A stretch of 64,000 bases of DNA from Crossaster papposus (taxonomy: Eukaryota; Echinodermata; Asteroidea; Velatida; Solasteridae), in contig JBAIAA010000408.1 in NCBI GenBank assembly GCA_037893245.1, positions 124,001 through 188,000 of the forward strand, written 5' to 3'. The notes beneath the pieces were generated by a model. That model searched no databases. It was not told the DNA's origin and saw nothing but the letters and a program-made list of their open reading frames with translations. The translations under genes and the position numbers were made by a program. Positions 22,575-63,770 of this stretch are shown in pieces (position 1 is the stretch's first letter; the number at the start of each line of letters is the position of its first letter).

Positions 22575-22990
22575 ATTACACGGGTTCCGAGGCCAGAATA
22601 CCGTTGAAGACATACGGCAACATTAACGCATTATAAATATTGTATAAAATATTAGAGGGACACAAATATTTCAATTTGTTAATAATACCAATTGTTCCTG
22701 AAATTAATTCACATAGAAAATTTACATGACATTTCCATGATAATTTTTCATCAATAAAAACACCCAGAAATTGAGTAAAGTTGGTTTAATTAACAAGATA
22801 ATTATCGTACAGAATATCAGTAGGAATTGGACTGGCTGTATTGCTAAACAACATAAAATGTTTTATCAATGTTGGGAGATAATTTGTTGGCTTTGATTCA
22901 TTTAGAAACACAAACAAGTTCTGTATTAATGACGTTAACCAGTTTACCCAAATTGTTATGCGAGTAAAATAAATTTAAGTCATCCTAAAA
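22575..22990 (-). pseudogene. CR1/L2-like LINE reverse transcriptase relic
   Basis: On the minus strand, across several stops, it reads DDLNLFYSHNNLGKLVNVIN, then FLGVFIDEKLSWKCHV and IGIINKLKYLCP, matching the region after the (F/Y)ADD box. The intact LINE at 56940-61766 has the same order of motifs, so it belongs to a related but older family. Confidence 0.65.
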
Positions 22991-23339
22991 AACAATGAGA
23001 TAAAATTTACACAGCACAACACATGTTTTTAATCAGGAAAAGAAATTCAGCAGAACCAGCAAATAAACTGGATCAAACCCTATCCGCCCCCGCCCCCCCC
23101 CCCCCCCCCCCCCCCCCCTAATCAAGTTGATACGTTACAACCACTTAAATTCACCCATTTCTGATGATTTAAGCAATTGCCAATGGTGTATCCTACCCTT
23201 AAACTTGACTGTTTTTTAAAAGTTGATTTTAGGTACCCGATGAGCTGATAACAACGTCCAATTTCGTAGCATTTTCTTAAAGTTCAATTTCTTATCCGTC
23301 ATGCAAACGACAAACCCGAAACCGCTAGTGAACCTCATC

Positions 23340-32047: not shown

Positions 32048-32867
32048 GTTGTGATTGAAGTACAACAAACCGTTGGTATATTATTCACAACTGTGTAAAG
32101 AAGCACATATTAATTAGGGAATAACAGTGTGAGGACCCAGTCTTCACTGCCAGATAATAACCGCACACTCCCGCCGCACGAGTCTGGCTACCATACTCGT
32201 CAGTATAAGAGCAGACGCCGAAGCAGAAACAGAAGAACGTGGTTGGGGGATGGCCGCTCTTAATGGACCGATCGAGCCGAAGTAACAATTTGGTTGCTGG
32301 CGTTTAGTGACTTTTGCGCCTTAAGTCTTCATTTAGTTTCTAATAATTCAAGAATATACTTTCACCATTTTCAAGTCTCTTTCTGATTGCTGCAATCAAC
32401 TTAAAAGTCGTCGAAGCTTACAGGATCTTCTATCTGCTTAGGGTTTTCTTGTTTGTTTAGAGTTAATCTGTTGTTCAATTCAGAAAGCGAAGCGACAAGT
32501 GTGATTCGGTTCTATGTTTCACGTGTCCTTAGCTCACGTGGGTTAAGGACTTTACCCCACAATGCAGACTGATAGAGACTAATCAGTATATGATTCTGAT
32601 TAGTCTTTATTCCGGATCAATTTAGCAGTTAAAATCCCAGCAGGTTAAATACTAGCTTAATACTAACGCACCCCAAGTGTGCAAAACCATTGCTACCCCT
32701 AGGGGAAGACACTTAATACTAACCAGTGTAGCGGTTCGCGATATGTTTTCAGGGGCTGGGTGGAGCGTGCGTCAATGAATATATTCATGAGAAAGAGCAA
32801 TGGCAACTCGTATACATTGAAGAACTATAAAGAATTATAAAGAACGAATAATTCAACCAACTCACCA

Positions 32868-37800: not shown

Positions 37801-40800
37801 AATCACCAAAACAAGGTACTACATTGGTTTTGTTTAACATTAATCTGTGGTTTGAATTAAGAAAAAAAGAAAAAAAGTGGATATTTAGCCGGCACCGCTT
37901 AAACTTCTGTTCACGCTATTTCTAGCTTGTACAGCGCCCTCTACATTATACAATAACCACCATCATTCGAGCAAGACCTATGGCCTATTAAAAAACGCTT
38001 TTTTCCTAAAATATGTTCTTCTTAAATATAATTGTTAATTGACTTACAATTTACAATTACTTCCTCTTGATTCGTACCTGGGACAACTCTTAACTGGGAC
38101 AACTCGTACCTGGGACAGCTCATAACTTGAGCAACTCGTACCTGGGAGAACTCGTAACTGGGACAACTCGTACCATGGACAACTTGTACCTTGAACAACT
38201 CGTACATGTACCTAGTTTGTACTTCACCAGCTTGTATAGCCCCCCCCCCCCTAAAGAAACACCGTGTTTCATGACGTAACATTTTTATAATTGAATAAAA
38301 TATTCCCATAAAAAAAATACATGTATACAAATATTAAACAAAAATATAAATACTAAGACCAACAAATACCAATATACTTAACATTCCAAAGAGCAATTAT
38401 TTGTTTAATGTACACTGTGTTCGTGTCAAAAAGTCGAGATATAACCGTCACTCCTTAATACTCCTTAAGCACTAAAATGACACTCCTAACCCTAGCCACA
38501 CTGGTGGGGCTACCCTAACCCTAACCCTAACCCTAACCCAAGCCCAAGCAGTATTCAAACCTGCACGACGATGTCTTAGCCAAAGCCACACCACGATATT
38601 GCTTTAGTTGTAGTCGAACAGTGCGTTTATATACTGCAAACTATCAGCCGAATATGTTATTATCAGGGTGCACCACCCTAATTGAAAGGAGAATTTCTAC
38701 GCGAGGTCATTTGCATGAAATGTGCCCCCCACAATTTCTTTTGAAAAAGGATGCCGTTTGGTGAAAGAAATGATGGGATTGTGTAAATATAGGATAGGAT
38801 CAACTCCCTGGTTTTTGAGCTTCAATCTGAGGGCAGATTTGACAAAATTACGGTTGAAAAATGGGTCCTAATTGCCCTAGAACGTGCAGGGATGCCATTT
38901 GTAAAATGGCTGCTTGCAGGCTCGGGAAGTATCACTTTTCGGAAGGTGAGTTTTTTTTAGTGTGAATATTAAAAAATGTAATTGGCTAACCTACTAAAAA
39001 TTGAAAAGAAATGGAAAGATAAAGACCAAGACAATAATCTGATTGTTGTTTGAGAAACCCCAGTGATGTCGGTGTGCATGAAACTTGGTCGTGAACATTG
39101 TTGATTTTACACTGTTTCCAATAGGCCTTGAATTAAGATGGTGCACCCATCATCATTACCATCATGGATGCCAGGTACGTCATGCCGTTAGCTATCTCGT
39201 ACGCGTATCGTATGAGGTCCGTAGGTGACATAGTGGTGCGTATGCTGGCGCGGTGCGTCTCTGCGTCCTGTACGCGTTGTCGGCTGTTACGGAGATGCTC
39301 TATCAGATTGCCGTTCGGGAGGTACTCCATGATGATCAAGGGAGGATCTGGGAGAGAAAAAAATAGTTGTTTTAAAGATAGATTGGTTGTATTTTGTTGT
39401 TCACATTGATCTGATGTTTCACATCGAAATGTTTGTTTCATTAGAGAGCGCCCTCTATTGACAGTTCTTGTATAACCAACGTAAAACAATGTAGTGTTTA
39501 TTTTAAAAAGTCATCAACAAATTTGTAAAAACCTTTTTGGCAAAAAAACATAGCAAGATAAAAACTGTTTAAAAACCATTTTTTTTTTTTAATAAATGTG
39601 TATAATTTATCACAAAAAATACTTGTACCCGCCGTACCAGGTCAAAATGCCATGTTACAAACAAATTGGAATGGCGTAGTATGGCTAAAGAAAAGCATCG
39701 GTGTTCAGAAGGTACGTGGTTCGAATCCAGCCATATACTTCTTTTTTAATGTTCTTCAAAAACTTGTACCATCAAAGTTGTTTATTTCAAGGGAGAAAAA
39801 AAGACCACTTTTTGCATAGTGTTAAAGTCTACTGGCTTCGCTTATTAGCGTGGCGATTATAACACTGTTACTGTAATATACTACCGGCATGCTTGCAACG
39901 TGACACTAAGACGTAAAAAAAGCCTTGCTTATTAATGAGGTTAGTCGGATCGGCTGTTGCGTCATTCGTCATTCGTATTCGCGGGAAACTCAAGCATGCC
40001 AAAAGAAGACAACCTCTCAATATGTTTCTGCTGCATGTACAATTATTACCTTCTCCAGTGCAACATCCGAAGAGCGTCACGATGTTTGGGTGGGGCTTTA
40101 GGATCTTCATGACCCCGAGCTCCTTCAGTAAGTCTTGGTGGTCATTCGAGGTAGAGTTTTCTGGAGGGATGTCAAAATTAACATACGTTTACAAATTCTC
40201 AATGAGATTTTATACCTGTAATGCCAGGTCAAATCCAGGGATGTAGTCGAGTCCACCACAAGTCCCTGCAAGTCCCTGCAAGTCCCTGTAAGTCCCTGTA
40301 AGTCAATCACAAGTCCTTCAGTTCCAATTCAAATCACAAGCTATTCAAATCAGCTTTGACAAAAACATTCCTTTGTTATTGTTCATCCAGTTACTTGTGA
40401 CAGCCTTTATGAAGGGACTTGTGACTGGCTTCACGAAAGGACTTGTGAAAGGACTTGCAGGGACTCGACTGGTCAAATCTGATCCGAAGTCAGCTCCGAT
40501 TCTGACCCGGGACTTACATTATATTTGCGGCTCGATGCCAGTTGTTGTATGTAGACAAACATTGGAATTTCAATTCGGCTTCTCTTTACCTTTTAGCGTT
40601 TTAATAGCGACCACGCTCTTCACGCCCGGTCTCAATATACCGTCGGCTTCGCCTCTCACCACCTTACCGAAGGACCCGGTACCCAGGACCGTGCCAAACA
40701 CCAACTGGTACCGTGGAAATTCAAATTCACCTCGGAGAAGGCCGGGCCCACAGGTCATAGGCATCACGTCATATTGCTGTGGGCGAAAAACAGTCAAAGT

Positions 40801-46800: not shown

Positions 46801-49297
46801 GAAAGCACATCATTTGCTCTCGGTTTTTGGTAATCCACTGAGCCGCCATCTTATTATAGACGGTTGTTATTTGGGTGAAAGGGTCGACTGTTTTTATTGA
46901 TTTGTATTGTTTAGGATAATGTTAGAAGGCCTTTTTAAAAAAAATAGCTCTGGTGACTTAATTGAGACTCATTTTGCTGGATTGGGTCATATGTTAGTTC
47001 AAGGGATGCTAGCAGGAAAACCGTATAATAATAGGGATCACTTTGGAAAATTACACAAGTCATAATGGCGAATGTCGTGCACAGAGCGTCTTAGCCTTTA
47101 CCTCCATGTCCCCGCCCCGGGTGCGTCTTCCCTGTACCGGTCATTGGCGTCCATCAGTCCGGCACGGTACCCGAACACACGTGCGTCGTTTCGGTACCAT
47201 CTGACCCCCGAGCCGTACCCAGCCTTGTCCATGTGGCACGTCAGGGTGATCGAAGCGCCCAGCGGTACCGTGTCCTTCGGATGCACGCTCATACGAACGA
47301 GGTTTCCCGTACCCACGACTGAAAAAAGAGTAAACAGTGGGTACAGGCTTCAACTAAACAGGACACTTCGGTACGGTCATTCACCGCGGTCATCCCATTC
47401 CTGACAAACAGACATTCCCTGAACTACAGAACGTTCAATGCATTGCACTTGTAATTGTACTAAATGGACCAACATTTACACTGTTTAATGTTTTAGTAAA
47501 GCACCTTCGGCTCATGATTTGTTTTTTTCTTAAATTAATTTACACATCAATTTAATTCAAAACTGATAAACGGAAACATGCATCTTTGCCTTTATTTACT
47601 TGTTTAATTTAATTATTAAATTGTCTTCTCTCTCTAGAAATAGTTCAACTGTTTTTTGTTTTTTTACAACGGGAAATAAAACACAGGAACATACCCATTG
47701 CCGTACCAAAAAGGCCAATTTTTATTTTATAGTATTAATTATATACCGCAAATGGATTTATAACTTCCGTACCTGATTAATTTTAATTTAAGACTTCCTT
47801 TCATAATGACCATCTCCATTAAATGTTATTTCATGCCTGACTCGTTAAAATGTATTGGGAGAGGGGAGGGAAAAGGGGGGGGGTTGGACAGTGTTTCCCC
47901 CTCCCCCCCCCCCCCTTTCCCCCCCCCCCCCCCCTTTCCCCCCATCTGCCATTGACTCACCCCCTTACAGTGAGAACTATGACTACCCCGCTGGCGATAA
48001 TTTTGTCTGCAGGTGGGTTGGTACATTAGCCAATCAGAACACAGATGGTGTTGACGTCATCGATGATGTTAGAGTCATCTGGGACAACCATAACCCTAAC
48101 CCCTAGGGGGGGGGGGGGGGTTGTACAGTGTTGCCCCCCCCCCCCCCCCCCCCTCCCCCATCTGCCATTGACTCACCCCCTTACAATGAGAACTATGGCT
48201 ACCCCGCTGGCGATAATTGTATCTGCAGGTGGGTTGGTACATTAGCCAATCAGAACACAGATGGTGTTGACGTCATCGATGATGTTAGAGTCATCTGGGA
48301 CAACCCTATCCTATAACCCTAACCTTAACCCTAACCTCTAACCCTAACCCTAACCCTAACCCTAACCCTAACCCTAACCCTAACACCTAACCCTAACCCT
48401 AACCCCTTACCCCTGTCAGAGCCCAGACAACTTGAGCATCATCGATGACGTCAACACCATCTGTGTTCTGATTGGCTAATAAAGGTACACTATGTACCAA
48501 CCTACCTGCAGAAAAAAATATCGCACCCCGCTGGGTGACCCATCCCATCCCTAATTTAGCCATTGACCTATGTTATGATATGAGTAAAACACTGACAATT
48601 ACCCAAGAAACATCTTAGAATAGAGGGGAAAGCAGAGTAGATTTCATAATTTCCTAGGCGGTCACTAATTCTTCCAAATAGGCACTTGGGGAGACAAATT
48701 AGCGTAAGTTTTCAGGTAATAATAACGCAGGGCCCACTCCCAACTCTTGACTTGATTTACCCTATGGCATAGAATGGAGTGGCCCTGTATTCTTTGGGTA
48801 TTGGGGTATATGGGATAGAGTCAGTCCATTCTATGTCCTAGGGTAAATAAAGTCGAATGTTGTGAGTGGGCCCTGCATTCTATAATTGCTCCTCGCATCC
48901 TCTTCCAAATTCACACCTTGGGTTAAGTCGTTAAAGACCAAATTCACATTCCTAGTGTAACGCTTATTAAAAAGTTATGTCTCTGAAGAAGATCTTGTTA
49001 AGATCGAAATATTAGGCCCTCTTAACTTATTTGATTTGCTTATTAAAAAGGAAATAATCTTACAAACACCCAGCTCAAACACCTCATACGAGGATCGTGG
49101 CTTCTAAATTAGTCGCTATAAAATGTCATGTTGACAACACATCAAATACAATGCAGTACTTTTTGTAAGGTTCTGGTTTTTTTGTTAAACCTCAGAACCA
49201 CAATTTCGTAAAGAAAAGGAGACCTACCTAATGTTAGCAGAGCTCCCGCTGTCACAACGACACGCAGCGCCGCGCGTACTTCTCGCACCGACGCCAT
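34759..49297 (-). CDS. Receptor tyrosine kinase with 3 Ig + 1 FN3 domains (FGFR/Cad96Ca-type kinase), 18 exons
   Basis: Eighteen exons join in frame for about 862 residues. Order: signal peptide ([15 protein letters not shown]..); Ig1 (exons 2-3), Ig2 (4), Ig3 (5-6); one fibronectin III domain (7-8); stalk and TM (9); juxtamembrane (10); tyrosine kinase (11-17); short tail (18). All catalytic marks are present: glycine loop [13 protein letters not shown] lysine, alpha-C glutamate in [33 protein letters not shown] and [15 protein letters not shown]. The kinase pattern ([21 protein letters not shown], tail NYLVLDF..LYDY) recalls FGFR and insect Cad96Ca/Stitcher kinases, while the Ig-FN3 ectodomain differs from both. 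Known RTKs of this build signal by ligand-induced dimerisation and trans-phosphorylation. The ligand is unknown. The borders fit GT-AG except one GC-AG intron. Confidence 0.9.
34931..35168 (+). repeat. Direct repeat, left copy, downstream of RTK exon 17
   Basis: About 240 bp starting GAGGAACTAATACCAGTCAG and ending GCCAGGATTCGACCGTATT. It is repeated at 35426-35674, and an AAGTCC element lies between the two copies. Confidence 0.75.
35178..35420. repeat. AAGTCC element between direct repeats
   Basis: Starts GTAGTCGAGTCCCTGCAAGT and ends GGACTCGACTACATCCCTGG, an inverted terminal pair. Same family as 494-790 and 40236-40465. Confidence 0.75.
35426..35674 (+). repeat. Direct repeat, right copy
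   Basis: Matches 34931-35168 over its length (GAGGAATTAATACCAGTTAG .. CCAGGATTCGACCGTATT) with small differences. Confidence 0.75.
35843..35942 (-). CDS. RTK exon 17: kinase end
   Basis: 100 bp, phase 2 to 0: [20 protein letters not shown] then [13 protein letters not shown], the usual last kinase helix. Confidence 0.92.
36230..36326 (-). CDS. RTK exon 16: kinase C-lobe
   Basis: 97 bp, phase 1 to 2: [20 protein letters not shown] then [12 protein letters not shown]. Confidence 0.9.
36457..36702. repeat. GGGGCCAATTTCAT MITE, complete copy
   Basis: Inverted ends GGGGCCAAATTCATAAAGCT and AGCTCTATGAAATTGGCCCC with inner TGCTAAGCACAAA repeats. In RTK intron 15. Confidence 0.8.
36720..37010. repeat. 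MITE, 'GGGCATGATGTG' family, with internal CACATCCACTTCCAAATT array
   Basis: Left end TAGAATTGGGCACGATGTGA, right end ACATCATGACCATTCCTA. Four 17-bp CACATCCACTTCCAAAT units at 36830-36900 show internal tandem growth. Confidence 0.75.
37113..37224 (-). CDS. RTK exon 15: kinase C-lobe
   Basis: 112 bp, phase 0 to 1: [20 protein letters not shown] then [17 protein letters not shown]. Confidence 0.92.
37343..37465 (-). CDS. RTK exon 14: catalytic and activation loops; GC donor
   Basis: 123 bp, phase 0-0: [38 protein letters not shown]. It ends CAG|GCAAGT: a GC donor is needed, since the only GT nearby breaks the join to GRVPIRWMA. Confidence 0.9.
38069..38228. repeat. ~17-bp minisatellite in RTK intron 13
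   Basis: Degenerate CTCGTACCTGGGACAA units, about nine copies. A C-run follows at 38240-38250. Confidence 0.75.
38513..38539. repeat. Interstitial telomere-like repeat (CCCTAA)n
   Basis: Four and a half perfect CCCTAA units inside RTK intron 13. Confidence 0.85.
39160..39347 (-). CDS. RTK exon 13: kinase hinge to alpha-E
   Basis: 188 bp, phase 1 to 0: [20 protein letters not shown], a short kinase insert, then [19 protein letters not shown]. Joins directly to CIHRDL in exon 14. Confidence 0.9.
39660..39735 (+). repeat. tRNA-like relic in RTK intron 12
   Basis: GTATGGCTAAAGAAAAGCAT followed by GTGGTTCGAATCCAGCCATA: a B box and a loosely tRNA-like body. Confidence 0.4.
40050..40160 (-). CDS. 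RTK exon 12: kinase alpha-C helix
   Basis: 111 bp, phase 1-1: [20 protein letters not shown] then [10 protein letters not shown], with the conserved Glu. Confidence 0.9.
40236..40465. repeat. AAGTCC element, RTK intron 11
   Basis: CCAGGGATGTAGTCGAGTCC at the left and GGACTTGCAGGGACTCGACT at the right; opposite orientation to the copy at 35178-35420. Confidence 0.75.
40590..40776 (-). CDS. RTK exon 11: kinase glycine loop and catalytic lysine
   Basis: 187 bp, phase 0 to 1: [20 protein letters not shown] then KVV, and VVAIKTLK. The EFPR lead-in resembles FGFR kinases. Confidence 0.92.
41504..41581 (-). CDS. RTK exon 10: juxtamembrane segment
   Basis: 78 bp, phase 0-0: [20 protein letters not shown] then LRRGSV. 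No domain; chosen because both splice sites and phase fit between exons 9 and 11. Confidence 0.65.
42151..42413 (-). CDS. RTK exon 9: stalk and transmembrane helix
   Basis: 263 bp, phase 1 to 0. A GC-rich extracellular stalk with NAT, NDS and NTT sequons, then [28 protein letters not shown] and the stop-transfer KLHKKR. Confidence 0.87.
42438..42665. repeat. GGGGCCAATTTCAT MITE, complete copy
   Basis: Inverted ends GGGGCCAATTTCACGGAGCT and AGCTCCGTGAAATTGGCCCC match exactly. It lies just outside RTK exon 9. Confidence 0.85.
42955..43045 (-). repeat. tRNA-like SINE head
   Basis: Minus strand: AGCTCCGTGGCCTAATGG .. GTGGGTTCGAACCCAGC .. CGGGGCT. A 7-bp acceptor stem can form, but the T stem is imperfect and the D arm is too long for a working tRNA. 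Confidence 0.5.
43316..43410 (+). repeat. ~95-bp direct repeat, copy 1 (RTK intron 8)
   Basis: Starts TTGTCACTTTTAAGCCAATA; almost identical to 45831-45924. Confidence 0.8.
43432..43554 (-). CDS. RTK exon 8: fibronectin III C-terminal part
   Basis: 123 bp, phase 1-1: [20 protein letters not shown] then AVGFGNHS, the canonical 'GL.P.T.Y.F.V.A.N..G.G..S' FN3 ending. Of two adjacent AGs, only the one giving DQDTIITGL keeps the phase. Confidence 0.85.
44352..44528 (-). CDS. RTK exon 7: fibronectin III N-terminal part
   Basis: 177 bp, phase 1-1: [37 protein letters not shown], a typical FN3 A-C' strand pattern. Confidence 0.82.
44755..44848 (-). CDS. RTK exon 6: Ig3 C-terminal part
   Basis: 94 bp, phase 0 to 1: [20 protein letters not shown] completes the D-x-G-x-Y-x-C motif. 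Confidence 0.85.
44982..45166 (-). CDS. RTK exon 5: Ig3 N-terminal part
   Basis: 185 bp, phase 1 to 0: [41 protein letters not shown]. Confidence 0.82.
45506..45775 (-). CDS. RTK exon 4: Ig2
   Basis: 270 bp, phase 1-1, a whole I-set-like domain: [43 protein letters not shown]. Confidence 0.88.
45831..45924 (+). repeat. ~95-bp direct repeat, copy 2 (RTK intron 3)
   Basis: Same sequence as 43316-43410 with a few changes. Two near-identical intronic copies suggest recent dispersal or local copying. Confidence 0.8.
46250..46365 (-). CDS. RTK exon 3: Ig1 C-terminal part
   Basis: 116 bp, phase 2 to 1. [20 protein letters not shown] holds the D-x-G-x-(W/Y)-x-C motif; ends TQTQLKIG. Confidence 0.82.
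46720..46990. repeat. Diverged repeat with ATATGACCC ends
   Basis: Contains ATGTGACCCGATCCTTCGAA at the left and TTGGGTCATATG at the right; the middle CAGTAGAAAGCACATCATTT matches sequences near 8790-8960 and 10940-11030. A worn MITE in RTK intron 2. Confidence 0.5.
47102..47318 (-). CDS. RTK exon 2: Ig1 N-terminal part
   Basis: 217 bp, phase 1 to 2. [20 protein letters not shown] then TCHMD (first Cys) and VRWYRND (core Trp). Confidence 0.82.
47950..48512. repeat. Compound block: two direct copies and one inverted copy around a telomere-like array
   Basis: CAATCAGAACACAGATGGTG units with TGACGTCATCGATGATG occur at about 47953-48090 and 48166-48305 (direct) and 48417-48512 (inverted), with poly-C runs before each direct copy. 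In RTK intron 1. Confidence 0.8.
48314..48408. repeat. Interstitial telomere-like array (CCCTAA)n
   Basis: About fifteen CCCTAA units with a few variants, between the second direct copy and the inverted copy of the flanking block. Confidence 0.9.
49228..49297 (-). CDS. RTK exon 1: start codon and signal peptide
   Basis: ATG at 49297 in a GC-rich patch; [20 protein letters not shown] then LTLG is a plausible signal peptide. Phase 1 donor GTAGGT. Intron 1 (47319-49227) carries poly-C tracts and telomere-like repeats. Confidence 0.75.
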
Positions 49298-51297: not shown

Positions 51298-51928
51298 TTT
51301 TGATTGGTCGAAAATTGGTGACGCGGACTTGCGCGTACGCAAAAGAGCAGATATAGTAAACCCTTTATTGGATTCTAACCGCTGACGTAACTATTATGGG
51401 CGGGTTGTACAATTCGCCCTCGGTGACGTTTTTTTCTCGCTCACAAGGCTTCGATATTTATCAATCTTGTTTCCTTGAGTCGAAATGAGTCCTTGCGATG
51501 GGCAAAATTGCCTGGAAAACTGATTAAAAAACTGTAACATGAACGAAATGTTATTAAATTAGTTCGGTGGTTACATAATGACGGCTATTTGAGGACGGAG
51601 CAGTGCGTTGGTGAAGGGCAAAAATCGAATATTGCATTTACATCTGCCGACGCAAAATTCCGTCTTATGAGGACTCGGTGATTGAAATCACTAGTGACGT
51701 CAGAGGTTGACATCCAATCAAAGCGTACCATTCTGCACTTTTGCATACGCGCAATGTTGTTTTTTGTTAATCTTAATCTGCACATTGCCTACATGTTACA
51801 CACATAAAAAGCCCCGCACAGGGCACAGGATGGTTAGATAGTAACAGCAAACCGAGCGATTTGGGTGCATCCCGAGCAACGAATTCAAGATACAACAGTG
51901 AATCTGGTCTCTTCGGTACATCCTAACG
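51298..51928 (+). promoter_or_regulatory. Putative promoter of GPCR copy 1
   Basis: ATTGG (inverted CCAAT) boxes near 51302-51320, a full CRE palindrome TGACGTCA at 51695-51702 and a TATA-like ATAAAAAG at 51804-51811, about 118 bases before the start codon. The same elements recur at the same spacing in unit 2. That repetition may reflect only the recent duplication. Confidence 0.5.
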
Positions 51929-53143
51929 ATGGCAAGCACTGAGCTCACCCCGAGCTCCATTCGTCCTCCTTTGTCAGAGATTGACGGGATCGGGAACGAA
52001 GTGACAATCTATAAAGTAATTCTCAACATATTCATCGTCATCTTCGGGACATTCGGCAACTCCTTAATCCTGCGGGTTTACTGGGGTAAGATGCGCAAGA
52101 CCAGCACCCACGTTCTGGTCATGGGGCTGGCGGGCGTCGACCTAGCGGTGTGTCTGCTGCGGATCCGCACCGTGATCAAGTTGGTTTGTGTCCTGGCGGG
52201 AATGGATTCCCCCCTGAAGCCTAAGATATTAGGGGTGCCGGTGAAAGTCGCGCTGGCGATGTCGTGCGTCTTTACGGCCGTTATAGCCTGTGATCGTTAC
52301 GACAGCGTCTGCCGGCCCTACAAGCGACTCTTCAACAGCCGCCGGGCCAAAGTGGCTATCTTCGTCTCCTTCGTTGTCGCGTTTCTACTGGAGTCGCCGA
52401 ATATCCTCAGTTTGATCTTGGCATCTCTGACCCTGCGCAAACTCTCCCACATCATTCAGATCTGCGTGTATTTGACAGTTCTGCTCACAACCGTCGTTTG
52501 TTACGGGAGAGTGTACGTGGCTGTGAGAAAACGAGCGAGAGTTCGCATTGGAGCGGTGGTGACAAAAACTGACGTAGCGACCGTGCCGAGTATCAGCAAA
52601 AACATCCCCACTAGGCTTATCAGAAAGGCTGAACTAAATACAGCCACAACTTCAGCACCGCGGCCCAAACAAACAGCTTCGTCAAATGTCCAGACACCAA
52701 TGTTCACTAATCACTCGCCTAATCAGCGTTTGAACCCATTCGAGAAAGTGCCGTCTCTCAAACCGTCATCAGCATGGGGCGATGTCCAACGGCAACGGAG
52801 CGTTACAGAGACAGACACCTTTAATCGCATCCAGTTGCGGGAGGGCAGATCTGGTAACCTGCCTCCAATGAGGCAGGTGATGCAGAGAAAGGTAACCAGA
52901 ATGCTGTTCATCACCAGTATGATGTTCCTGGGGACCTGGTTGCCCTATTGGATCTACATCGCTGCGGATCTCCACGTTCTGAACGGTGGGACAATCGGAG
53001 AGGGCGTGCGGGACAAGATTTTTGCCGCAGCGGTGTTGGTGCCGTTCAACAGCGTCATCAACCCTATTATCTATGGTTTAGCCAACAGCCAATTTCGTAA
53101 AGATTGCGCGGTTGTTTTCAAAAAATGGCACCTGTGTTGTTGA
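51929..53143 (+). CDS. Class A GPCR, array copy 1 (intact)
   Basis: 404 residues, one exon. Visible: TM1 with GNSLILRVYW, TM2 with LAGVDLAVCLL, TM3 ending CDRYDSVCRP (DRY at 122-124), a long polar third intracellular loop (about 203-320), TM6 with TWLPYW and TM7 with NSVINPIIY (NPxxY at 378-382), then helix 8 and a terminal CC that could be lipidated. Motifs place it firmly in the rhodopsin class; the ligand is unknown. The first-loop basic patch and the loop of ~118 residues rich in Ser/Thr would allow G-protein coupling and phosphorylation. Similar intronless tandem GPCR families are common in echinoderms. This start is the first ATG after the TATA-like box and is shared by copy 2. Confidence 0.9.
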   Translation: MASTELTPSSIRPPLSEIDGIGNEVTIYKVILNIFIVIFGTFGNSLILRVYWGKMRKTSTHVLVMGLAGVDLAVCLLRIRTVIKLVCVLAGMDSPLKPKILGVPVKVALAMSCVFTAVIACDRYDSVCRPYKRLFNSRRAKVAIFVSFVVAFLLESPNILSLILASLTLRKLSHIIQICVYLTVLLTTVVCYGRVYVAVRKRARVRIGAVVTKTDVATVPSISKNIPTRLIRKAELNTATTSAPRPKQTASSNVQTPMFTNHSPNQRLNPFEKVPSLKPSSAWGDVQRQRSVTETDTFNRIQLREGRSGNLPPMRQVMQRKVTRMLFITSMMFLGTWLPYWIYIAADLHVLNGGTIGEGVRDKIFAAAVLVPFNSVINPIIYGLANSQFRKDCAVVFKKWHLCC

Positions 53144-53799
53144 ATGACAAAACACTAATTAGCCCTTCACTTTGTCGTAGTATTGGTCTTTTTAACGTTA
53201 CTGGACCTCACCTTACCTCCTCAAGAACACCTGGAAAATTATCACAATTTCAAGTAAGAATGTAGTACAAGATGTAGTCACATAATCGTACATGTACAAT
53301 TAGTCCCGATCGTGCACATTGTTGTTATTTAGATTGATGGTAATTACCAATAGCCATCTCCGCGTTAAAAAAGACATCGGTTCAAATTATGTATGTACCA
53401 AGAAAAGGGTAACCGAGTCGATACAATTATTAGGTTAAATAAGAATTTAGTACTAGATTTTGCAGTGATGACGTCACTGATGTTAACACGCGCTCTCTTA
53501 TAGGAGCCAGTACGGGCGATCGTTTCGTAATCCCGTCAAAAATCTCGAATGTAAACAAAATGTGACTTCGCCAGTACACAGGCGTATTTGTGTTACTTGA
53601 ACATTAATGTTTAGTCTATCAAAAAAAAAATCTAAAGTGTAAACACGTTTTTGTGAGATAACTATTGCACGAGTATTACCTGTATGTAACAAATAGTTTT
53701 GACGTAATAATAAAATAAAAACACCACTCACCCACATACAGTGCGTATGCAGTCATGTTTCACATATAAAGATATAAGACAGACGAATCAACGGGGTCT

Positions 53800-54320
53800 G
53801 TTCGTTAGTCAGAAGGTTTATTGGTCCAAAGGTTCGATAGCCAAAACACACAAATTTCCCAAAGCGGAGGTTCATTAGTTCGAAAACGAAAAATAAATTC
53901 GCTAATCCGAACATTTGATGCGATTGTCCGAAAAGGTTAAAGTCCGAAAAGGTTCAACATTCCGAAGGTTTGATAGTCTGAATTTAGAATGAGATTAATC
54001 CGTACGAAGGTTCATTAGTCCTGCAAAGAAAATAAATGTGAAATAGTCCGAGGGTTCATTAATTCCAAAGCACACATAATTCATTAAGGTTTTTTATTGT
54101 CGATTCGGACTACCGAACCTTGTTGTTATTTCAGACTATACCGAGCCTTCGGATTATTTTAACCTTATTCTATTTTTGGACTAATGACAGAACCCTTCGG
54201 ACTATCGAACCTTCGGAATATGGAACCTTCGTACTAACAAACCTTCGTACTAAACAAACCTTCGAAATAACAAACCTTTGGACGAACGAATCTTCGGACT
54301 ATCGAGCGGCCCCCGAGGAA
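53800..54320. repeat. TTCGGACTA-rich degenerate repeat, unit 1
   Basis: Many GGTTCATTAGTCC, GAACCTTCGGACTA and GAAGGTTTGATAGTC variants on both strands. The same block recurs in unit 2 at about 62500-63000. Confidence 0.7.
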
Positions 54321-54495
54321 ACACCCCCCCCCCCCCCCCATACCCCCCCCCCCCCCCATATCCCCCATACCCCCCCCCCCCCCATATCCCCCCCCCCCCA
54401 TATCCCCCATACCCCCCCCCCCCCCCATATCCCCATACCCCCCCCCCCCCCCATATCCCCCCATATCCCCCATACCCCCCCCCCCCCCCCTGCTG
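54320..54495. repeat. Poly-C / CCCATA tract, unit 1
   Basis: C-runs of about 8-14 separated by ATA; the other strand is G-run DNA able to form quadruplexes. A G-run at 54604-54640 follows. Proline- or glycine-rich frames here are not genes. Confidence 0.85.
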
Positions 54496-55157
54496 TATGC
54501 CACTAATGCGAGGCCTGATTAAGATGAAATGCCGTTCCCCTGCGAGCGCACGCATTTCTTGATGTTCTTGCGCAGGAATAAATACAAACAACAACATCGG
54601 AACGGGGGGTGGGGGGGGGGGGGGGGGGGGTGGGGGGGTCAGCCATCCACTAAGCCTGGAACGCGCCATATGCTGTGTACTTCTTTGTTATCTAAATGTT
54701 GCGTTCCGCCGCGGGCAGGTCATTAGCAGCGGAAACACGATCTGAAAAGGTAAGAAATAAACGGAGGCCAGGCGTAAAGAAAACCACAAATGATTAGTCT
54801 GAGATGTGTTTTATAGGAATGATCCAAAATCGGTCCAAACCTCTACAAGGATTGTGTGTGGTATACATGTACATGTACTGGTTTATTTTCAGGTAGTGTC
54901 ACACCGTAGCGAGTAATCATTGATGTTGACACGAATTGTTTTTGTCCGCTATCGATGTTTTGTTAATAACAAGTTTAAGGTCACATAATTGTTTTGGGGG
55001 TTTTTTTTCTCGTCTTTTAATAATAGGTTCCGGCAGACGTGCCAAGCCTGCTTTTTTTTAATTTATGCATTCATGTAGACAGTGTGCAGATTTTTCTTTG
55101 TTGATTGAGTTGATCGAGAGGTATATTGTGTCACCTTTCGCCTAAAGGAATTAGTCT

Positions 55158-55797
55158 TTTTGATTGGTCGAAAATTGGTGACGCGGACTTGCGCGTATGC
55201 AAAAGAGCAGAATCAGTACGCTTTTATTGGATTTCAACCGCCTACGTCACTATGATGGGCGGGTTGTACAACTTCGCCCTCAGTGGCGTTTTTTTTCTCG
55301 CTCTCAAGGCTTTGTGGTTCATTAATTTTGTTTTCATCATTAGTCGAAATGAGTCCTTGTGATGGGCAAAATTGCTTGAAAAAAAACTGATTACAAAACT
55401 GTAACATGAACGAAATGTTAGTAAATTAATTCGGTGGTTACATAATGACGGCTATTCGAGGACGGAGCAGTGCGTTGGTGAAGGGCAAAAATCTAATATT
55501 GCATTTACATCTGCCGACGCAAAATTTCGTCTTATGAGGACTCAGTGCTTGAAATCACTAGTGACGTCAGCGGTTGACATCCAATCAAAGCGTACCATTC
55601 TGCGCTTTTGCATACGCGCAAGGTGTTTTTTATTCTCAATCTGCACATTGCCTACATGTTACACACATAAAAAGCCCCGCACAGGGCACAGGATGGTCAG
55701 ATGGTAACAGAAAACCAAGTGATTTGGGTGCATCACGAGCAACGAATTCAAGATACAACAGTGAATCTGGTGTCTTCGGTACTTTGACTTCCAAACG
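55158..55797 (+). promoter_or_regulatory. Putative promoter of GPCR copy 2
   Basis: TGACGTCA at 55562-55569 and ATAAAAAG at 55667-55674, spaced as in unit 1 (105 versus 109 bases). Confidence 0.5.
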
Positions 55798-56976
55798 ATG
55801 GCGACCACTGAGATCACCCCGAGCTCCATTCGCCCTTTTTTGTCAGAGATTGACGGGATCGGGAACAAAATGGCAATCTTAAAAGCTATCCTGAACATAT
55901 TCATCGTCATCTTCGGGACATTCGGCAACTCCTTAATCCTGCGGGTTTACTGGGGTAAGATGCGCAAGACCAGCACTCACGTTCTGGTCATGGGGCTGGC
56001 TGGCGTCGACCTAGCGGTGTGCCTGCTGCGGATCCGCACCGTGATCAAGTTCGTTTGTGTCCTGGCGGGAATGGATTCCCCCCTGAAGCCTAAGATATTA
56101 GGGGTGCCGGTGAAAGTCGCGCTGGCGATGTCGTGCGTCTTAACGGCCGTTATAGCCTGTGACCGTTACGACAGCGTCTGCCGGCCCTACAAGCGACTCT
56201 TCAACAGCCGCCGGGCCAAAGTGGCTATCTTCGTCTCCTTCGTCGTCGCGTTTCTACTGGAGTCGCCGAATATCCTCAGTTTGATCTTGGCATCTCTGAC
56301 CCTGCGCAAACTCTCCCACACCATTCAGATCTGCGTGTATTTGACAGTTCTGCTCACAACCGTCGTTTGTTACGGGAGAGTGTACGTGGCTGTGAGAAAA
56401 CGAGCGAGAGTTCGCATTGGAGCGGTGGTGACAAAAACTGACGTAGCGACCGTGCCGAGTATCAGCAAAAACATCCCCACTAGACTTACCAGAAAGGCTC
56501 AACTAAATACAGCCACAACTTCAGCACCGCGGCCCGAACAAACAGCTTCGTCAAATGTCCAGACACCAATGTTCACTAATCACTCGCCTAATCAGCGTTT
56601 GAACCCATTCGAGAAAGTGCCGTCTCTCAAACCGTCATCAGCATGGGGCGATGTCCAACGTCAACGGAGCGTCACAGAGACGGACACCTTTAATCGCATC
56701 CAGTTGCGGGAGTGCAAATCTGGTAACCTGCCTCCAATGAGGCAGGTGATGCAGAAAAAGGTAACCAGAATGCTGTTCATCACCAGTATGATGTTCCTGG
56801 TGACCTGGTTGCCCTATTGGATCTACATCGCTGCGGATCTCCACGTTCTGAACGGTGGGACAATCGGAGAGGGCATGCTGGCCAAGCTTTTTACCGCAGC
56901 GGTGTTGGTGCCGTTCAACAGCGTCATCAACCCTATTATCGATGAGGGCGCTGTCATGAGCTTGACACGAATTTAG
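55798..56976 (+). pseudogene. Class A GPCR, array copy 2, truncated by LINE insertion
   Basis: Nearly identical to copy 1 (scattered changes, e.g. around residues 16-30 and 358-365) up to NSVINPII, where the LINE 5' end enters. The frame then reads DEGAVMSLTRI and stops, so NPxxY, helix 8 and the Cys tail are lost and the protein would be 392 residues. The remaining codons survive in frame beyond the LINE at 61774-61846. A receptor cut inside TM7 is unlikely to fold or signal normally, though a dominant-negative role cannot be excluded. Confidence 0.9.
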
Positions 56977-57114
56977 TACACGCTATCAAACAGACCGGAT
57001 TTTCTTGAATTTTATCTTCTTTTTGTACTGCCGCTACTTCTAAAGTCTGCCAACGTTTGTATTGTCTACTGTAGTACACTATTAGTGATAAATTGGCCCA
57101 GAGGAGTACTCAGA

Positions 57115-58038
57115 ATGCCACCTAAACGTGATAAAAAATCCGATAATGCACGATCTCCGTCCAGCACTGAATCAACCACATCCAAGATGGCGTCTTGCGC
57201 TAAATCTCCAAAAATGACAACACGTGCACGAGTTGGTACAGTTGCAATAGACGAATCTCCAACCTCACGTAGTGAATTCGACATTCTTCGAGACGACTTG
57301 AGATCTATGACTGGTGACATCCATGCTAAACTCGATAAAGTTATTCTTAACCAGGAAAGTTTGCTCGGCAGAGTTGATATTGTCGAGGCCAAACAGGTGG
57401 AGTTTGAACGATCACTTAGCTTCACCGATGACTCGGTTGAGAATCTTCGTCAGCAAGCTGCTACATCTTCTTGTGTTGTCTCCAGAACTGAAACGCAACT
57501 TCAGATGGCAGTGAGGAGTCTCGAAAAGGTGCAAGATGAGGTGCTTCAACTCGAGAGATATTCTCGGAGTTATAACCTGCGTTTCGGAGGTGTTCCTGAG
57601 GTACATGTATCATCTGAGCACCCTTCACATGCACTTCAAGCTGTGAAGGATATATTGGCGGATAAGTTTAAACTTCCTGACATCATCATTGAGAATGCTC
57701 ATCGTACTGGTTATAACAAGCCTAAATCACCTTCAGATAAACCCCGACACATCATTGCCAAATTCATCCATAGACCAGAAAGGCAAGTCATCCTGAGTCA
57801 AGCAAGGAAAGCACTTCGAGACACAGATATTTTTGTGATACAGGACTTGCCTCAAGCTGATGCAGCCAAGAAGCGATCACTCAGTGACGTCATGAAACAA
57901 GCCTATGAAAAGGGCCACCAGGTTGTTTTCCGTAACGGCAAGCTCTACATTGATGGTAAGGAGCATCGCACACCTCCCCCTACCGTGCCTGCAGCTAGAC
58001 CTACTCCCCCTACCGTGCCTGCAGCTAGACCTAACTGA
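57115..58038 (+). CDS. LINE ORF1 protein (RNA-binding, coiled coil)
   Basis: 307 residues from the ATG at MPPKRDKKSD. A basic N-terminus; a coiled-coil stretch (about 65-155, DILRDDLRSM .. LEKVQDEVLQLERYSR); then an RRM-like start SYNLRFGGVPE and a C-terminal domain with HIIAKFIHRPERQVILSQAR and VFRNGKLYIDGK. This matches L1-type ORF1p design, which coats LINE RNA and chaperones nucleic acid. The end carries a 36-base duplication giving PPTVPAARP twice. A longer GTG-initiated frame from 57085 is not needed. Confidence 0.85.
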   Translation: MPPKRDKKSDNARSPSSTESTTSKMASCAKSPKMTTRARVGTVAIDESPTSRSEFDILRDDLRSMTGDIHAKLDKVILNQESLLGRVDIVEAKQVEFERSLSFTDDSVENLRQQAATSSCVVSRTETQLQMAVRSLEKVQDEVLQLERYSRSYNLRFGGVPEVHVSSEHPSHALQAVKDILADKFKLPDIIIENAHRTGYNKPKSPSDKPRHIIAKFIHRPERQVILSQARKALRDTDIFVIQDLPQADAAKKRSLSDVMKQAYEKGHQVVFRNGKLYIDGKEHRTPPPTVPAARPTPPTVPAARPN

Positions 58039-58356
58039 ATATTCATCTGATTCATCTTGTCTGGCATTCATTGAGGATTGTTCCTCTTCTTGTAGTACAT
58101 GCATTTGTGCTATTTCATATATTCTGTATGGTTATAAGTCGATTAATACCGGTTCTGTTTGATAGAAGTTCGAATTATTTTTTCTTTTTCTTGTACGTAG
58201 TGACTAGTGCTCTATAACTTTGTATTTATTTATTCATGTGTGTGAATTGTGTTGTATTTTGTGATATGTTGTGTATTATATGTGTGATACAGGTTGGCAT
58301 AATTGGTTATATCAAGCATCTCAGGGTATTGAATTCAACATTTTTCAAATTGTAGT

Positions 58357-61300
58357 ATGATGACAGGTATTGAAACTGAAAGCAATGAGCATGTGATAAA
58401 TATTGACGATGAGGATGTTGATATTATTGACAATCCATTCTCCTTATCCAATAACTCCCAGTATTATTCTGCTGATCAATTTCCTAGGACTGTTAATAAC
58501 AATTGTATTTCATTACTGCATATTAATATAAGGAGCCTCCACAAAAATTTTGATCAACTAAATATCCTTTTGCATTCTATTAATTATAAATTTTCGGTTA
58601 TTGCACTCTCTGAAACTTGGTTAAAAACTGCCCCTCATAGTTACTATTGTTTGCCTGGTTATGAGCTCATTGTGAATAATAGACAGGGTGCTAAAAGCGG
58701 TGGTGGAGTTGCCCTTTATGTTTCTTGTGATTTGAATATTGTTAATAGGGAAGATCTATTTTTTTCAGATAACTCCCTTGAATCCTTATTTATTGAGATT
58801 TTAATTCCCAAAGCCAAAAACATTATAGTGGGTGTTGTATACAAAGCACCCTCTGTTGTTCACTGTGAGTTTATGAACACTTTTCAAAGCGTGTGTTCTC
58901 GTATTGCATGTAATAACAAACCTTGTATAATTTCTGGAGACTTTAATGTTAATTTACTCAACCATGCCAACGCTAACTCGCAGGCCTTCGTTGATTTAAT
59001 TACATCTTATTCCTTTCTTCCCTTAATTGATAAGCCCACTCGCATAACTGATTCTTCTGCGACACTTATAGATAATCTCTTTTGTAATATTCTTCCTTCC
59101 CCCAAATCAGGTGTTTTATTATCCGATATTTCAGATCACTTTCCAATTTTTATGTTTGTACACTCTCCTACCTCAACCATTACCCATGATAGCAACATTT
59201 ATAATTCTTCTTTTTTTCGTAAATTCACAAATGTCAATCTCCAAAGCTTTAATAATGATTTATACTCTAGTGATTGGGGGGATGTGATTTCTAGTGATAA
59301 TCCAGAAGTTGCTTTTAATATGTTTATGGATAAATTCAATTATATATATGATAAAAATATTCCACTTATTCAAAATAAACGCAAATCTAGAACTAATCAT
59401 AAATCGAATTCACCCTGGATCACCAATTCACTCCTTAAATCCATAAATAAGAAAAATAAATTGTATCGTCAATATTTGTCGCATCCCACGAATACACACA
59501 AAAGCAAGTATACTAAATATAGAAATATTTTAACTAGTCTTTTACGTACATCCAAAAAAAAATACTTTGCTCGTCAGTTTGAACAGGAAAAAAACAACAT
59601 TCGTAATACCTGGAAAGTAATTAATTCTGTTTTAAACAATAAGAAGTCTTCCCATACTATTAGTAGTATCATTTCTGATGGCAAAATAATCAGTGATCCT
59701 AATCAAATTGCTAATTGCTTTAATGATTACTTTGTAAACATAGGACCTAATCTTGCAAGTGACATTCAATCTACTCGCCCATCTAGTAGTTTTACAGATT
59801 ATCTGATTCATCCTAATCCAAATTCTTTATTCTTTGTTCCGACCACTGAATATGAGATAGTTGATATTGTTCACAATTTGCAAAATAAGAAAAGCTCTGG
59901 TCATGACTCAATTAATATATCTATTATTAAGAATTCTATTAATGCCATATGTAAGCCACTTGCTCACATTGTTAATGCCTCATTTTTAACTGGTATTGTT
60001 CCCTCACAAATAAAAATTGCTAAAGTTATTCCAGTTTTTAAAAAGGGAGATCCTAATTGTGTCAATAACTACAGACCTATCTCTGTCCTCACATGCTTTT
60101 CTAAGATTTTTGAAAAATGCGTTTATGTCCGTACTGTACGTTTTTTGGATAAATTTGATATCTTGACAAGTTCACAATTTGGATTTCGTAGTAAACATTC
60201 TACTACTCATGCTCTCCTTGATTTTATAGACAAAGTTTCCAATGCAATTGATGACTCGAAACACACTATAGGAATGTTCCTCGATCTGTCAAAGGCATTT
60301 GATACAATCGACCATAATATTTTATTGTACAAACTTTCTTTTTATGGCATTCGTGGAACTTCCCTAGAGTGGTTTAAGAATTACCTATCTAATCGATCTC
60401 AATATGTGTCTATCGATGGTAGTAATTCAAAATATAAGGAATTAACATATGGTGTACCCCAAGGATCAATTCTTGGACCATTACTTTTTTTAATATATAT
60501 TAATGATTTTACAAAATGTTCTAACGTACTTTCGTTTATATTATTTGCAGATGATTCAAATTTATTTGTTTCACATAGTAACCCCAGATATCTTATTGAT
60601 ACAGTCAACACTGAACTCAAATCTGTTGCAAATTGGTTCAACGTTAATAAGTTGTCCCTCAATATCAGTAAAACCAACTATATGCTGTTCAGTAATTCTA
60701 TTAGTGACCTTCCTGGTGATGTAGAAATTAATAATGTTATCATTAACAAGACCGACTGTTGTAAATTCCTGGGACTGTTGATTGATTCTGGATTAACATG
60801 GAAATTTCATATTAACAATGTGTGTAAAATTGTTGCCAGGAATGTTGGTGTGATAAATAGGATCAAACATTTTTTTCCTGAACCAGTTCTTGAATCTCTG
60901 TATAATACTTTAATTTTATCATATCTTAATTATGGAATTCTTGCATGGGGGAATAGTTCTGTCACAAATTTAAACAGGCTACTCCTTTTACAGAAACGGG
61001 CTTTACGTTCAATTAATTATGTAGATTTTTGTACGCACTCGGACCCTCTTTTTGTTAAACATAGGATTTTAAAATGCAAAGATGTATATAACCATCAGCT
61101 TGGGTCCCTTATGTATCAATCCACCTGTAATACTTTACCATTAACAATTCAGAGTATATTTACTCGGAATCGTGAAATTCATACTCATTTTACTCGTCAA
61201 GCTTCCAACTTTCACATCCCATTTACTCGCACTTCTTTTGCTCATAAAACTATTAAATATGAGGGACCCAGACTTTGGAACTCATTTGATGAACAACTTA

Positions 61301-61368
61301 AAACATCTAAAAATCTCTTCATTTTTAAACGTGGGTTTAAATCTGTCTTGCTGAAATCCTACTGTTGA
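58357..61368 (+). CDS. LINE ORF2 protein: endonuclease and reverse transcriptase
   Basis: 1003 residues. N-terminal apurinic-type endonuclease: LLHINIRSLHKNFDQL, ALSETWL, SGDFNVNL (GDFN at 194-197) and SDISDHFPIF (SDH at 259-261). Reverse transcriptase: KVIPVFKKGDPN, NYRPISVL, FLDLSKAFDTIDH, PQGSILGPLLFLIYIND (from 701) and FADDSNLF (ADD at 731-733), then FLGLLIDSGLTW and the C-terminal LSYLNYGILAWG and LQKRALRSI. No stop or frameshift, so it could still be active. It makes target-primed cDNA from LINE RNA. Confidence 0.95.
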   Translation: MMTGIETESNEHVINIDDEDVDIIDNPFSLSNNSQYYSADQFPRTVNNNCISLLHINIRSLHKNFDQLNILLHSINYKFSVIALSETWLKTAPHSYYCLPGYELIVNNRQGAKSGGGVALYVSCDLNIVNREDLFFSDNSLESLFIEILIPKAKNIIVGVVYKAPSVVHCEFMNTFQSVCSRIACNNKPCIISGDFNVNLLNHANANSQAFVDLITSYSFLPLIDKPTRITDSSATLIDNLFCNILPSPKSGVLLSDISDHFPIFMFVHSPTSTITHDSNIYNSSFFRKFTNVNLQSFNNDLYSSDWGDVISSDNPEVAFNMFMDKFNYIYDKNIPLIQNKRKSRTNHKSNSPWITNSLLKSINKKNKLYRQYLSHPTNTHKSKYTKYRNILTSLLRTSKKKYFARQFEQEKNNIRNTWKVINSVLNNKKSSHTISSIISDGKIISDPNQIANCFNDYFVNIGPNLASDIQSTRPSSSFTDYLIHPNPNSLFFVPTTEYEIVDIVHNLQNKKSSGHDSINISIIKNSINAICKPLAHIVNASFLTGIVPSQIKIAKVIPVFKKGDPNCVNNYRPISVLTCFSKIFEKCVYVRTVRFLDKFDILTSSQFGFRSKHSTTHALLDFIDKVSNAIDDSKHTIGMFLDLSKAFDTIDHNILLYKLSFYGIRGTSLEWFKNYLSNRSQYVSIDGSNSKYKELTYGVPQGSILGPLLFLIYINDFTKCSNVLSFILFADDSNLFVSHSNPRYLIDTVNTELKSVANWFNVNKLSLNISKTNYMLFSNSISDLPGDVEINNVIINKTDCCKFLGLLIDSGLTWKFHINNVCKIVARNVGVINRIKHFFPEPVLESLYNTLILSYLNYGILAWGNSSVTNLNRLLLLQKRALRSINYVDFCTHSDPLFVKHRILKCKDVYNHQLGSLMYQSTCNTLPLTIQSIFTRNREIHTHFTRQASNFHIPFTRTSFAHKTIKYEGPRLWNSFDEQLKTSKNLFIFKRGFKSVLLKSYC

Positions 61369-61773
61369 ATCTAATTGTTGAATCATTTTAATTAAACGTC
61401 AAATCCCTATAATGTAGTAGATGTACATTGCTATAACCTCTTGCTGACCTGTTAGTCTGTCCAGTCCTTGTCTATTGTTAGTGTCCGAGTGTACGTGTAT
61501 TATGTAACTTTCCTTATTGTACATGTACATGCCATGCATTGAGTCCTATTTACAGTAGTTTTGCAGTTTTGTTCTATTAACATTCCCCCCTTAGGCCTCA
61601 ATGCATGTGTATGCTAGGGGCCATGCTTATAAGCTTTGCTTCATAATGAGCCCCTCCACAATATTACTATATGTTCGATTTAATTACATTTTGTAAATTA
61701 AGACTCTATTCGGTGTTCTTGATAATATTTGATATTGTGGAAATAAAATGAACTATGAACTATGAACTATTAT

Positions 61774-61846
61774 CTATGGTTTAGCCAACAGCCAATTTCG
61801 TAAAGATTGCGCGGTTGTTTTCAAAAAATGGCACCTGTGTTGTTGA
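61774..61846 (+). pseudogene. Orphaned C-terminal codons of GPCR copy 2
   Basis: Continues the GPCR frame after the target-site duplication: YGLANSQFRKDC .. KKWHLCC then TGA, unchanged at the protein level from copy 1. No sign of long decay. Confidence 0.9.
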
Positions 61847-62499
61847 ATGACAGAACACTAATTAGCCCTTCACTTTGTCGTAGTATTGGTCTTTTTAACA
61901 TTACTGGAACTCACCTTACCTCCTCAAGAACACCTGGAAGATTATCACAATTTCAAGTAAGAATGTAGTACAAGATGTAGTCACGTAATCGTACATGTAC
62001 AATTAGTCCCGATCGTGCATATTGTTGTTATTTAGATTGATGGTAATTACCTATAGCCAGCTCCGCGTTAAAAAAGACATCGGTTCAAATTATGTATGTA
62101 CCAAAAAAAGGGTAACCGAGTCGATACAATTAGTTAGGTTAAATAAGAATTTAGTACTAGATTTTGCAGTGATGACGTCACTGATGTTAACACGCGCGCT
62201 CTTATGGGAGCCAGTACGGGACGATGGTTTTGTAGTCCCGTCAAAAATCTCGAATGTAAACAAAATGTGACTTCGCCAGTACACAGGCGTATTTGTGTTA
62301 CTTGAACATTAATGTTTAGTCTATTCCAAAACAAATCTAAAGTGTAAACACGTTTTTGTGAGATAACTATTGCACGAGTATGTAAACAATAGTTTGACGG
62401 AATAATAATAAAAAAACACCACTCACCCACATACAGTGCGTATGCAGTCATGTTTCACATATAAAGATATAAGACAGACGGATCAACAGGGTCTGTTCG

Positions 62500-63000
62500 T
62501 AAGTCCGAAGGTTTATTGGTCCAAAGGTTCGATAGCCAAAATACACAAATTTCCCAAAGCGGAGGTTCATTAGTCCAAAAACGAAAAAAAAGTTCGCTAA
62601 TCCGAACATTTGATGCGATTGTCCGAAAAGGTTAAAGTCCGAAAAGGTTCAACATTCCGAAGGTTTGATAGTCTGAATTTAGAATGAGATTAATCCGTAC
62701 GAAGGTTCATTAGTCCTGCAAAGAAAATAAATGTGAAATAGTCCGAGGGTTCATTAATTCGAAAGCACACATAATTTAGTAAGTTTTTTTTATTGTGGAT
62801 TCGGACTACCGAACCTTGTTGTTATTTCAGACTACCGAGCCTTCGGATTATTTTAACCTTATTCTATTTTTGGACTAATGACAGAACCCTTCGGACTATC
62901 GAACCTTCGGAATATGGAACCTTCGTACTAACAAACCTTCGTACTAAACAAACCTTCGAAATAACAAACCTTTGGACGAACGAATCTTCGGACTATCGAG
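62500..63000. repeat. TTCGGACTA-rich degenerate repeat, unit 2
   Basis: Same block as 53800-54320, with only small differences. Confidence 0.7.
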
Positions 63001-63015
63001 CGGCCCCGAGGAAAC

Positions 63016-63116
63016 ACCCCCCCCCCCCCCCCCCCCCCCCATACCCCCCCCCCCCCATATCCCACATACCCCCCCCCCCCCCCCCCCCCCATATCCCCCC
63101 CCCCCCCCCCCCCCCT
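63016..63116. repeat. Poly-C / CCCATA tract, unit 2
   Basis: Shorter than its unit 1 counterpart by roughly 70-80 bases, which explains most of the length difference between units. Confidence 0.85.
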
Positions 63117-63770
63117 GCTGTATGCCACTAATGCGAGGCCTGATTAAGATGAAATGCCGTTCCCCTGCGAGCGCACGCATTCCTTGATGTTCTTGCGCAG
63201 GAATAAATACAAACAACAACATCGGAACGGGGGGGTGGGGGGGGGGGGGGGGGTCAGCCATCCACTAAGCCTGGAACGCGCCATATGCTGTGTACTTCTT
63301 TGTTATCTAAATGTTGCGTTCCGCCGCGGGCAGGTCATTAGCAGCGGAAACACGATCGAAAAGGTAAGAAATAAACGGAGGCCGGGCGTAAAGAAAACCA
63401 CAAATGATTAGTCTGAGATGTGTTTTATAGGAATGATCCAAAATCGGTCCAAACCTCTACAAGGATTGTGTGTGGTATACATGTACATGTACTGGTTTAT
63501 TTTCAGGTAGTGTCACACCGTAGCGAGTAATCATTGATGTTGACACGAATTGTTTTTGTCCGCTTTCGATGTTTTGTTAATAACAAGTTTAAGGTCACAT
63601 AATTGTTTTGGGGGTTTTTTTTCTCGTCTTTTAATAATAGGTTCCGGCAGACGTGCCAAGCCTGCTTTTTTTAATTTATGCATTCATGTAGAAAGTGTGC
63701 AGATTTTTCTTTGTTGATTGAGTTGATCGAGAGGTATATTGTGTCACCTTTCGCCTAAAGGAATTAGTCT

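Follow-up and report, generated by a model that had tools for sequence, protein, structure and literature searches.

When a mobile element lands in one member of a tandem receptor array, which came first, the duplication or the insertion, and what becomes of the interrupted copy? The question is raised by a stretch of 64,000 nucleotides from the sea star Crossaster papposus (contig JBAIAA010000408.1, here C408, positions 124001–188000; hereafter the window, whose own numbering is used below), in which one of two neighbouring single-exon, rhodopsin-type G protein-coupled receptor (GPCR) genes is split by a long interspersed nuclear element (LINE). We analysed the window against the C. papposus assembly (1.02 Gb in 1841 contigs). 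The account that we arrive at, and hold as a whole with high confidence, is that target-primed reverse transcription brought a recently active LINE, probably a member of the L2/CR1 group, into the codons for the seventh transmembrane helix (TM7) of receptor copy 2, the body of which had probably been exchanged at an earlier time.

The insertion and its effect on the receptor

Copy 1 (51929–53143, plus strand) is an open frame of 404 residues which passes uninterrupted through the insertion site and covers the whole PF00001 (7tm_1) profile (1–260 of 260, E 9.3e-23). Copy 2, on the same strand, is found in two pieces: codons 1–381 at 55798–56940, which still match positions 1–259 of the 260 in PF00001, and the detached final 23 codons with the stop, running from Y382 of the NPxxY motif to the C-terminus, at 61775–61846. 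Between them lies the LINE (56941–61766, plus strand, 4.83 kb), which splits the frame after codon 381 as NPII|YG. The unduplicated target is preserved in copy 1 as CTATTATC at 53064–53071, where the context (53060–53076) reads AACC-CTATTATC-TATGG. The left junction in copy 2 reads AACC-CTATTATC-GATGAGGGCG, with the LINE starting at 56941, and the right junction reads ATGAA-CTATTATC-TATGG, with host codons resuming at 61775. The same bases are therefore present on both sides of the element, at 56933–56940 and 61767–61774. This target-site duplication measures 4 to 8 bp: 8 bp is the maximal reading and 4 bp (TATC) are certain, because the CTAT of the right copy could equally be LINE tail. With the position set by the empty site, eight identical bases out of eight would arise by chance with a probability of about 1.5e-5.

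The LINE insertion in copy 2 is thus real, and the junctions place it inside the NPxxY codons, as in the original prediction; the flanking duplication described there was also found, although the length given for it, 7 bp (CTATTAT), falls short of the maximal reading. Formally, an assembly error is a possibility that weighs against the insertion, the junctions being known from the assembled sequence. Copy 1, which had been proposed as the empty site, is uninterrupted, and so are eight other full-length receptor matches listed elsewhere in the assembly (two on contig C1003, three on C360, one on C78 and two on C561). All nine are contiguous across the site, which is split only in copy 2. Of these nine, the five that were read, namely copy 1, both on C1003 and two on C360, are all open frames.

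The reading frame of copy 2 continues from codon 381 through 11 LINE codons to a stop at 56974–56976. Copy 1 has both the complete NPxxY motif and the helix that follows it (its structural model, with a mean predicted local distance difference test score of 75, has helices at residues 371–385 and 387–403), whereas copy 2 ends after NPII. Five residues past the insertion point, Y382, G383, N386, F389 and R390, are invariant in 25 aligned receptors. The truncated product would lose Tyr382 of NPxxY together with the next helix and would gain 11 LINE-encoded residues, and on these grounds it is probably non-functional. The closest receptor among 7997 candidates scored comes from Patiria miniata (65% identity). 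Sea-star rhodopsin-type receptors in tandem arrays are likewise described in the crown-of-thorns starfish, as putative olfactory GPCRs (PMC5442662); the present receptor resembles these in type and array.

A full-length LINE of a young family

Both open reading frames (ORFs) of the element are open, as the original prediction had it. ORF1 (57115–58038, plus strand, 307 residues) gave no confident sequence match in Pfam, PF02994 reaching only E 0.057. Its predicted structure consists of a coiled coil (residues 54–151), an RNA recognition motif (RRM) and a C-terminal domain, and the model matches human L1 ORF1p (2yko, E 1.3e-8), which points to a type II ORF1. Type II ORF1s are reported for the L1, CR1, L2 and R1 clades (Metcalfe and Casane 2014, PMC4120745). 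Relatives of this ORF1 were found in Asterias, Patiria and Holothuria. Close to its 3' end, an in-frame repeat of about 30 bases (57970–58033) encodes PPTVPAARP twice.

ORF2 (58357–61368, plus strand, about 1002 residues) encodes a putative endonuclease and a reverse transcriptase. The reverse transcriptase domain (PF00078, E 2.6e-32) marks the element as a LINE, and ORF2 also matches L1 ORF2p chains in the PDB (E 6.3e-18). It deviates at 2 of the 172 columns that are invariant in 21 relatives, where each relative in turn deviates at 0 to 12. The element closes with a 3' tail of 7-base repeats, (ATGAACT)n, at 61748–61766, and other copies carry such repeats as well. Distant reverse-transcriptase fragments, about 41% identical to ORF2, are present on the minus strand at 22591–23071.

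Domains, homologues and other copies together suggest that the LINE probably belongs to the L2/CR1 group of the Jockey superfamily. The L2 and CR1 lineages are described as having two ORFs as well, an ORF2 with endonuclease and reverse transcriptase, and a type II ORF1 built, as here, of coiled coil, RRM and C-terminal domain (PMC4120745), and 3' repeat units like those of the present element are described for L2-clade elements (PMC4176376). The comparison brought out no defined difference between these lineages and the LINE. Two points count against our description of the element: the match of ORF2 to the endonuclease profile PF03372 scores 19.6 bits, under the Pfam cutoff of 24.5 (many of the listed relatives carry PF03372), and the group label is based on motifs and on the description in a paper rather than on a labelled tree. 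A 3' RNA stem-loop of the L2-clade type was also sought, with z = -1.85 over 131 nt and 0.19 over 81 nt.

A search for near-identical copies elsewhere had been suggested as a check, and the assembly contains at least 50 matches to the LINE (the best 40 of 796 candidates were scored). Aligned to the window copy, other insertions start at its base 4 (locus L010), base 5 (L003 and L004, one site) and base 15 (L002); the first two of these are independent insertions that begin within 5 bases of its 5' end. Since these 5' starts are shared with other copies, the window LINE is full length, as claimed, plus three bases (GAT) at the 5' junction that precede the point where L010 begins. Four of the nine longest loci (L001–L009) reach the 5' end; the window copy and L002 keep both ORFs at approximately full length, and L003 and L004 have a broken ORF2.

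The window LINE differs by 0.39–1.67% from 17 other copies. In addition to the window copy there are 29 LINE loci, and the comparison took in 17 of them, setting aside same-site duplicates (L004 and L015, of L003 and L014 respectively), fragments or more diverged loci (L013, L019–L022 and L025) and L027–L030, which were not entered; the remaining matches had no locus. Private substitutions in the window copy occupy 12 of 4813 sites (0.25%; 0–0.54% in the 17 others), a figure whose weight as a measure of age is lessened in that it counts only sites where all other copies agree and may include changes in the source lineage. The open ORFs set an age bound of 0.44% divergence at an indel/substitution ratio of 0.2, 0.71% at 0.1 and 1.87% at 0; between tandem units 1 and 2, described below, the ratio is 13/49. 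The element is a full-length member of a young family, and the youth ascribed to it in the original prediction is upheld.

Receptor bodies and 5' ends in the arrays

Self-comparison divides the region into tandem units on the plus strand: unit 1 (51298–55157) comprises the intact receptor and its flanks, unit 2 (55158–63770) carries the LINE, and unit 3 starts at 63771 and runs to the end of the window at 64000, with its receptor just beyond. In that receptor (positions 64412–64582 of the extended window, L031:1412–1582) the 5' flank and 57 codons are kept and the body is deleted. The deletion, of about 1.2 kb, joins sequence equivalent to position 53331, and AGA is shared at the join. One of the three receptors is therefore intact, one carries the LINE and one is deleted, leaving two of three broken.

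Contig C1003, which has two open-frame receptors without the LINE, was examined as a candidate second allele of the locus, a reading that was rejected. Its homology spans about 19 kb of the extended window (50714–69530, with gaps) and, short repeats apart, ends on both sides within the stretches fetched; the one distant stretch compared (C1003:190001–197500) has only short repeats in common with the window; and the assembly contains only one full copy of a 1.2 kb stretch of the window (31000–32200, the one gene tested). For these reasons C1003 is more likely a paralogous array.

Divergence between units 1 and 2 is 9.4% in the interval that ends at position 52025 and is made up of the 5' flank and 32 codons, and only 2.2% beyond it, the 3' flank included. 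A changepoint at 52025 brings a log-likelihood gain of 34.7, compared with at most 11.3 in 1000 shuffles. The tree of the 5' part joins unit 2 with unit 3, C1003b and C360b (support 93) and unit 1 with C1003a (82). Forcing units 1 and 2 together in this part is rejected by the approximately unbiased (AU) test (2.7e-6), as is forcing C1003a with C1003b (9e-6); forcing C360a with C360b is not (0.055). In the tree of bodies, C360a and C360b form a pair with support 100, and outside C360 no two bodies are closer than those of units 1 and 2 (2.3%). The two copies are less diverged in the body in the other arrays too, with other boundaries: in C1003 the best break falls near codon 120, with a gain of 9.8 that 1 of 500 shuffles reached, and in C360 it falls in the 5' flank, with a gain of 37.2 that 0 of 500 reached. 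On this basis, a single crossover at codon 32 was rejected as the origin of the mosaic. Conversion or unequal crossing-over among receptor bodies is the simplest account of the break. The 5' ends and bodies of the arrays seem to have different histories, most clearly in C360; homogenisation within arrays is firm for C360 only, and exchange within the C408 array itself is likely, not proven.

It is conceivable, but in our judgement unlikely, that no exchange took place and that the 5' flank and N-terminus merely evolve faster. Such a reading gains from the weak resolution of body groupings within C408 and C1003, and several results weigh with it against exchange. Support in the body tree is only 64 for units 1 and 2 and 45 for the two C1003 copies. 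When the C408 and C1003 bodies are taken alone, the positional double grouping is only marginally rejected (AU 0.026), and neither half of it is rejected singly (0.08 and 0.45). In the 3' flank, unit 1 is 2.4% from unit 3 and 2.9% from C1003a, but 3.4% from unit 2, and the tested alternatives with unit 1 beside unit 2 or beside C1003a are not rejected (0.10 and 0.085). Set against these are the noncoding flanks of units 1 and 2, which differ by only 2.3% on the 3' side as opposed to 8.5% on the 5' side, and the full support for the pairing of C360 bodies; when the three arrays are taken together, a forced positional grouping of their bodies is rejected (6.5e-8), chiefly owing to C360. We retain exchange among the bodies as the probable source of the break.

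Three further features of the window are recorded here. A minus-strand frame of 315 residues at 31133–32080 looks, by eye, like another seven-helix receptor, and occurs in full once in the assembly. A telomere-like run of TAACCC repeats at 48289–48424 lies between inverted-repeat arms. A repeat of about 485 bases (38665–39150) recurs in nearly identical form at no fewer than 33 other listed places, of which 27 are on contig C414 with partly regular spacing.

Order of events and the fate of copy 2

The order that we infer begins with the original duplication. Exchange with a sequence closely related to copy 1 would then probably have replaced the body of copy 2, leaving its 5' flank and N-terminus of another type; here the break itself is observed. 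The LINE would have inserted last. What the 2.2% between the bodies dates is the more recent of duplication and exchange; the insertion came after it, since the LINE has at most 0.25% in its own lineage against about 1.1% per lineage for the bodies. The original prediction of duplication first and insertion later is accordingly borne out in its order but not in its use of the sister copy to date the original duplication: because the bodies are 2.2% apart and the 5' parts 9.4%, the sister probably dates the later exchange. At the insertion itself, a nick would expose a 3' end (ATAG) which may have paired with CUAU of the LINE repeat tail and primed synthesis of complementary DNA.

That the LINE was instead carried into the array from another chromosome, by exchange or unequal crossover, is improbable. 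Unit 2 does look recombinant, but the private divergence of the LINE is about one fourth of what the bodies have accumulated per lineage, and the LINE is in none of the other full-length receptor matches listed. We consider it very improbable that units 1 and 2 are two alleles of a single receptor gene, heterozygous for the LINE and misassembled in tandem. Some sea stars are very heterozygous (published values include 5.16% for Patiria pectinifera, 0.96% for Asterias amurensis and 0.32% for Zoroaster) and the receptor bodies are close. However, units 2 and 3 have upstream sequence in common that is not in unit 1; the 5' parts are 9.4% apart; three contig pairs which share an insertion and are possibly alleles differ by about 0.02–0.3%, well under the unit divergence; C1003 and C360 carry receptors in a similar tandem layout; and the gene at 31000–32200 occurs once in the assembly. 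Just as little credit can be given to a truncated receptor, 11-residue LINE tail included, that is still made and functional, for example as a decoy or dominant-negative: the frame does run open into the LINE and copy 2 has not accelerated (body branch 0.010, compared with 0.015 in copy 1; the 23 amino-acid differences include 4 derived in copy 2 and 9 derived in copy 1, the other 10 being ambiguous), but five alignment-invariant residues are lost and the insertion is too recent for branch lengths to tell. Between copies 1 and 2, the ratio of nonsynonymous to synonymous divergence (Ka/Ks) is 0.61.

Insertion of a recently active LINE into copy 2 after a probable exchange of its body thus remains our account of the locus. 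LINE insertions that break duplicated genes are a known pattern, and a young full-length LINE in a redundant receptor copy is a clear, textbook example of an ordinary kind of event. The present case fits that pattern in that a mobile element has cost the array a redundant copy; here, the array additionally shows signs of exchange between bodies. To call it gene loss in progress, as had been done, is fair, but what is being lost is a single redundant copy, and the third member of its array has already been deleted. A literature search by title found no paper on the present subject.

A more speculative extension, to which we attach a low probability, is that the bodies of these arrays replace each other's sequence, whereas the promoters and N-termini remain distinct, in which case exchange could erase the LINE or spread it. 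If this were true, a LINE-broken body would be no dead end, and gene death in these arrays would be partly reversible. The locus in any case offers a datable death of a redundant receptor copy, with a LINE at most 0.25% diverged from its relatives in a host body 2.2% from its sister. In the same array another copy was lost in a different way, by a deletion whose join has 3 shared bases, and bodies have probably been exchanged, so that duplication, exchange and loss could be measured together in one small natural system.

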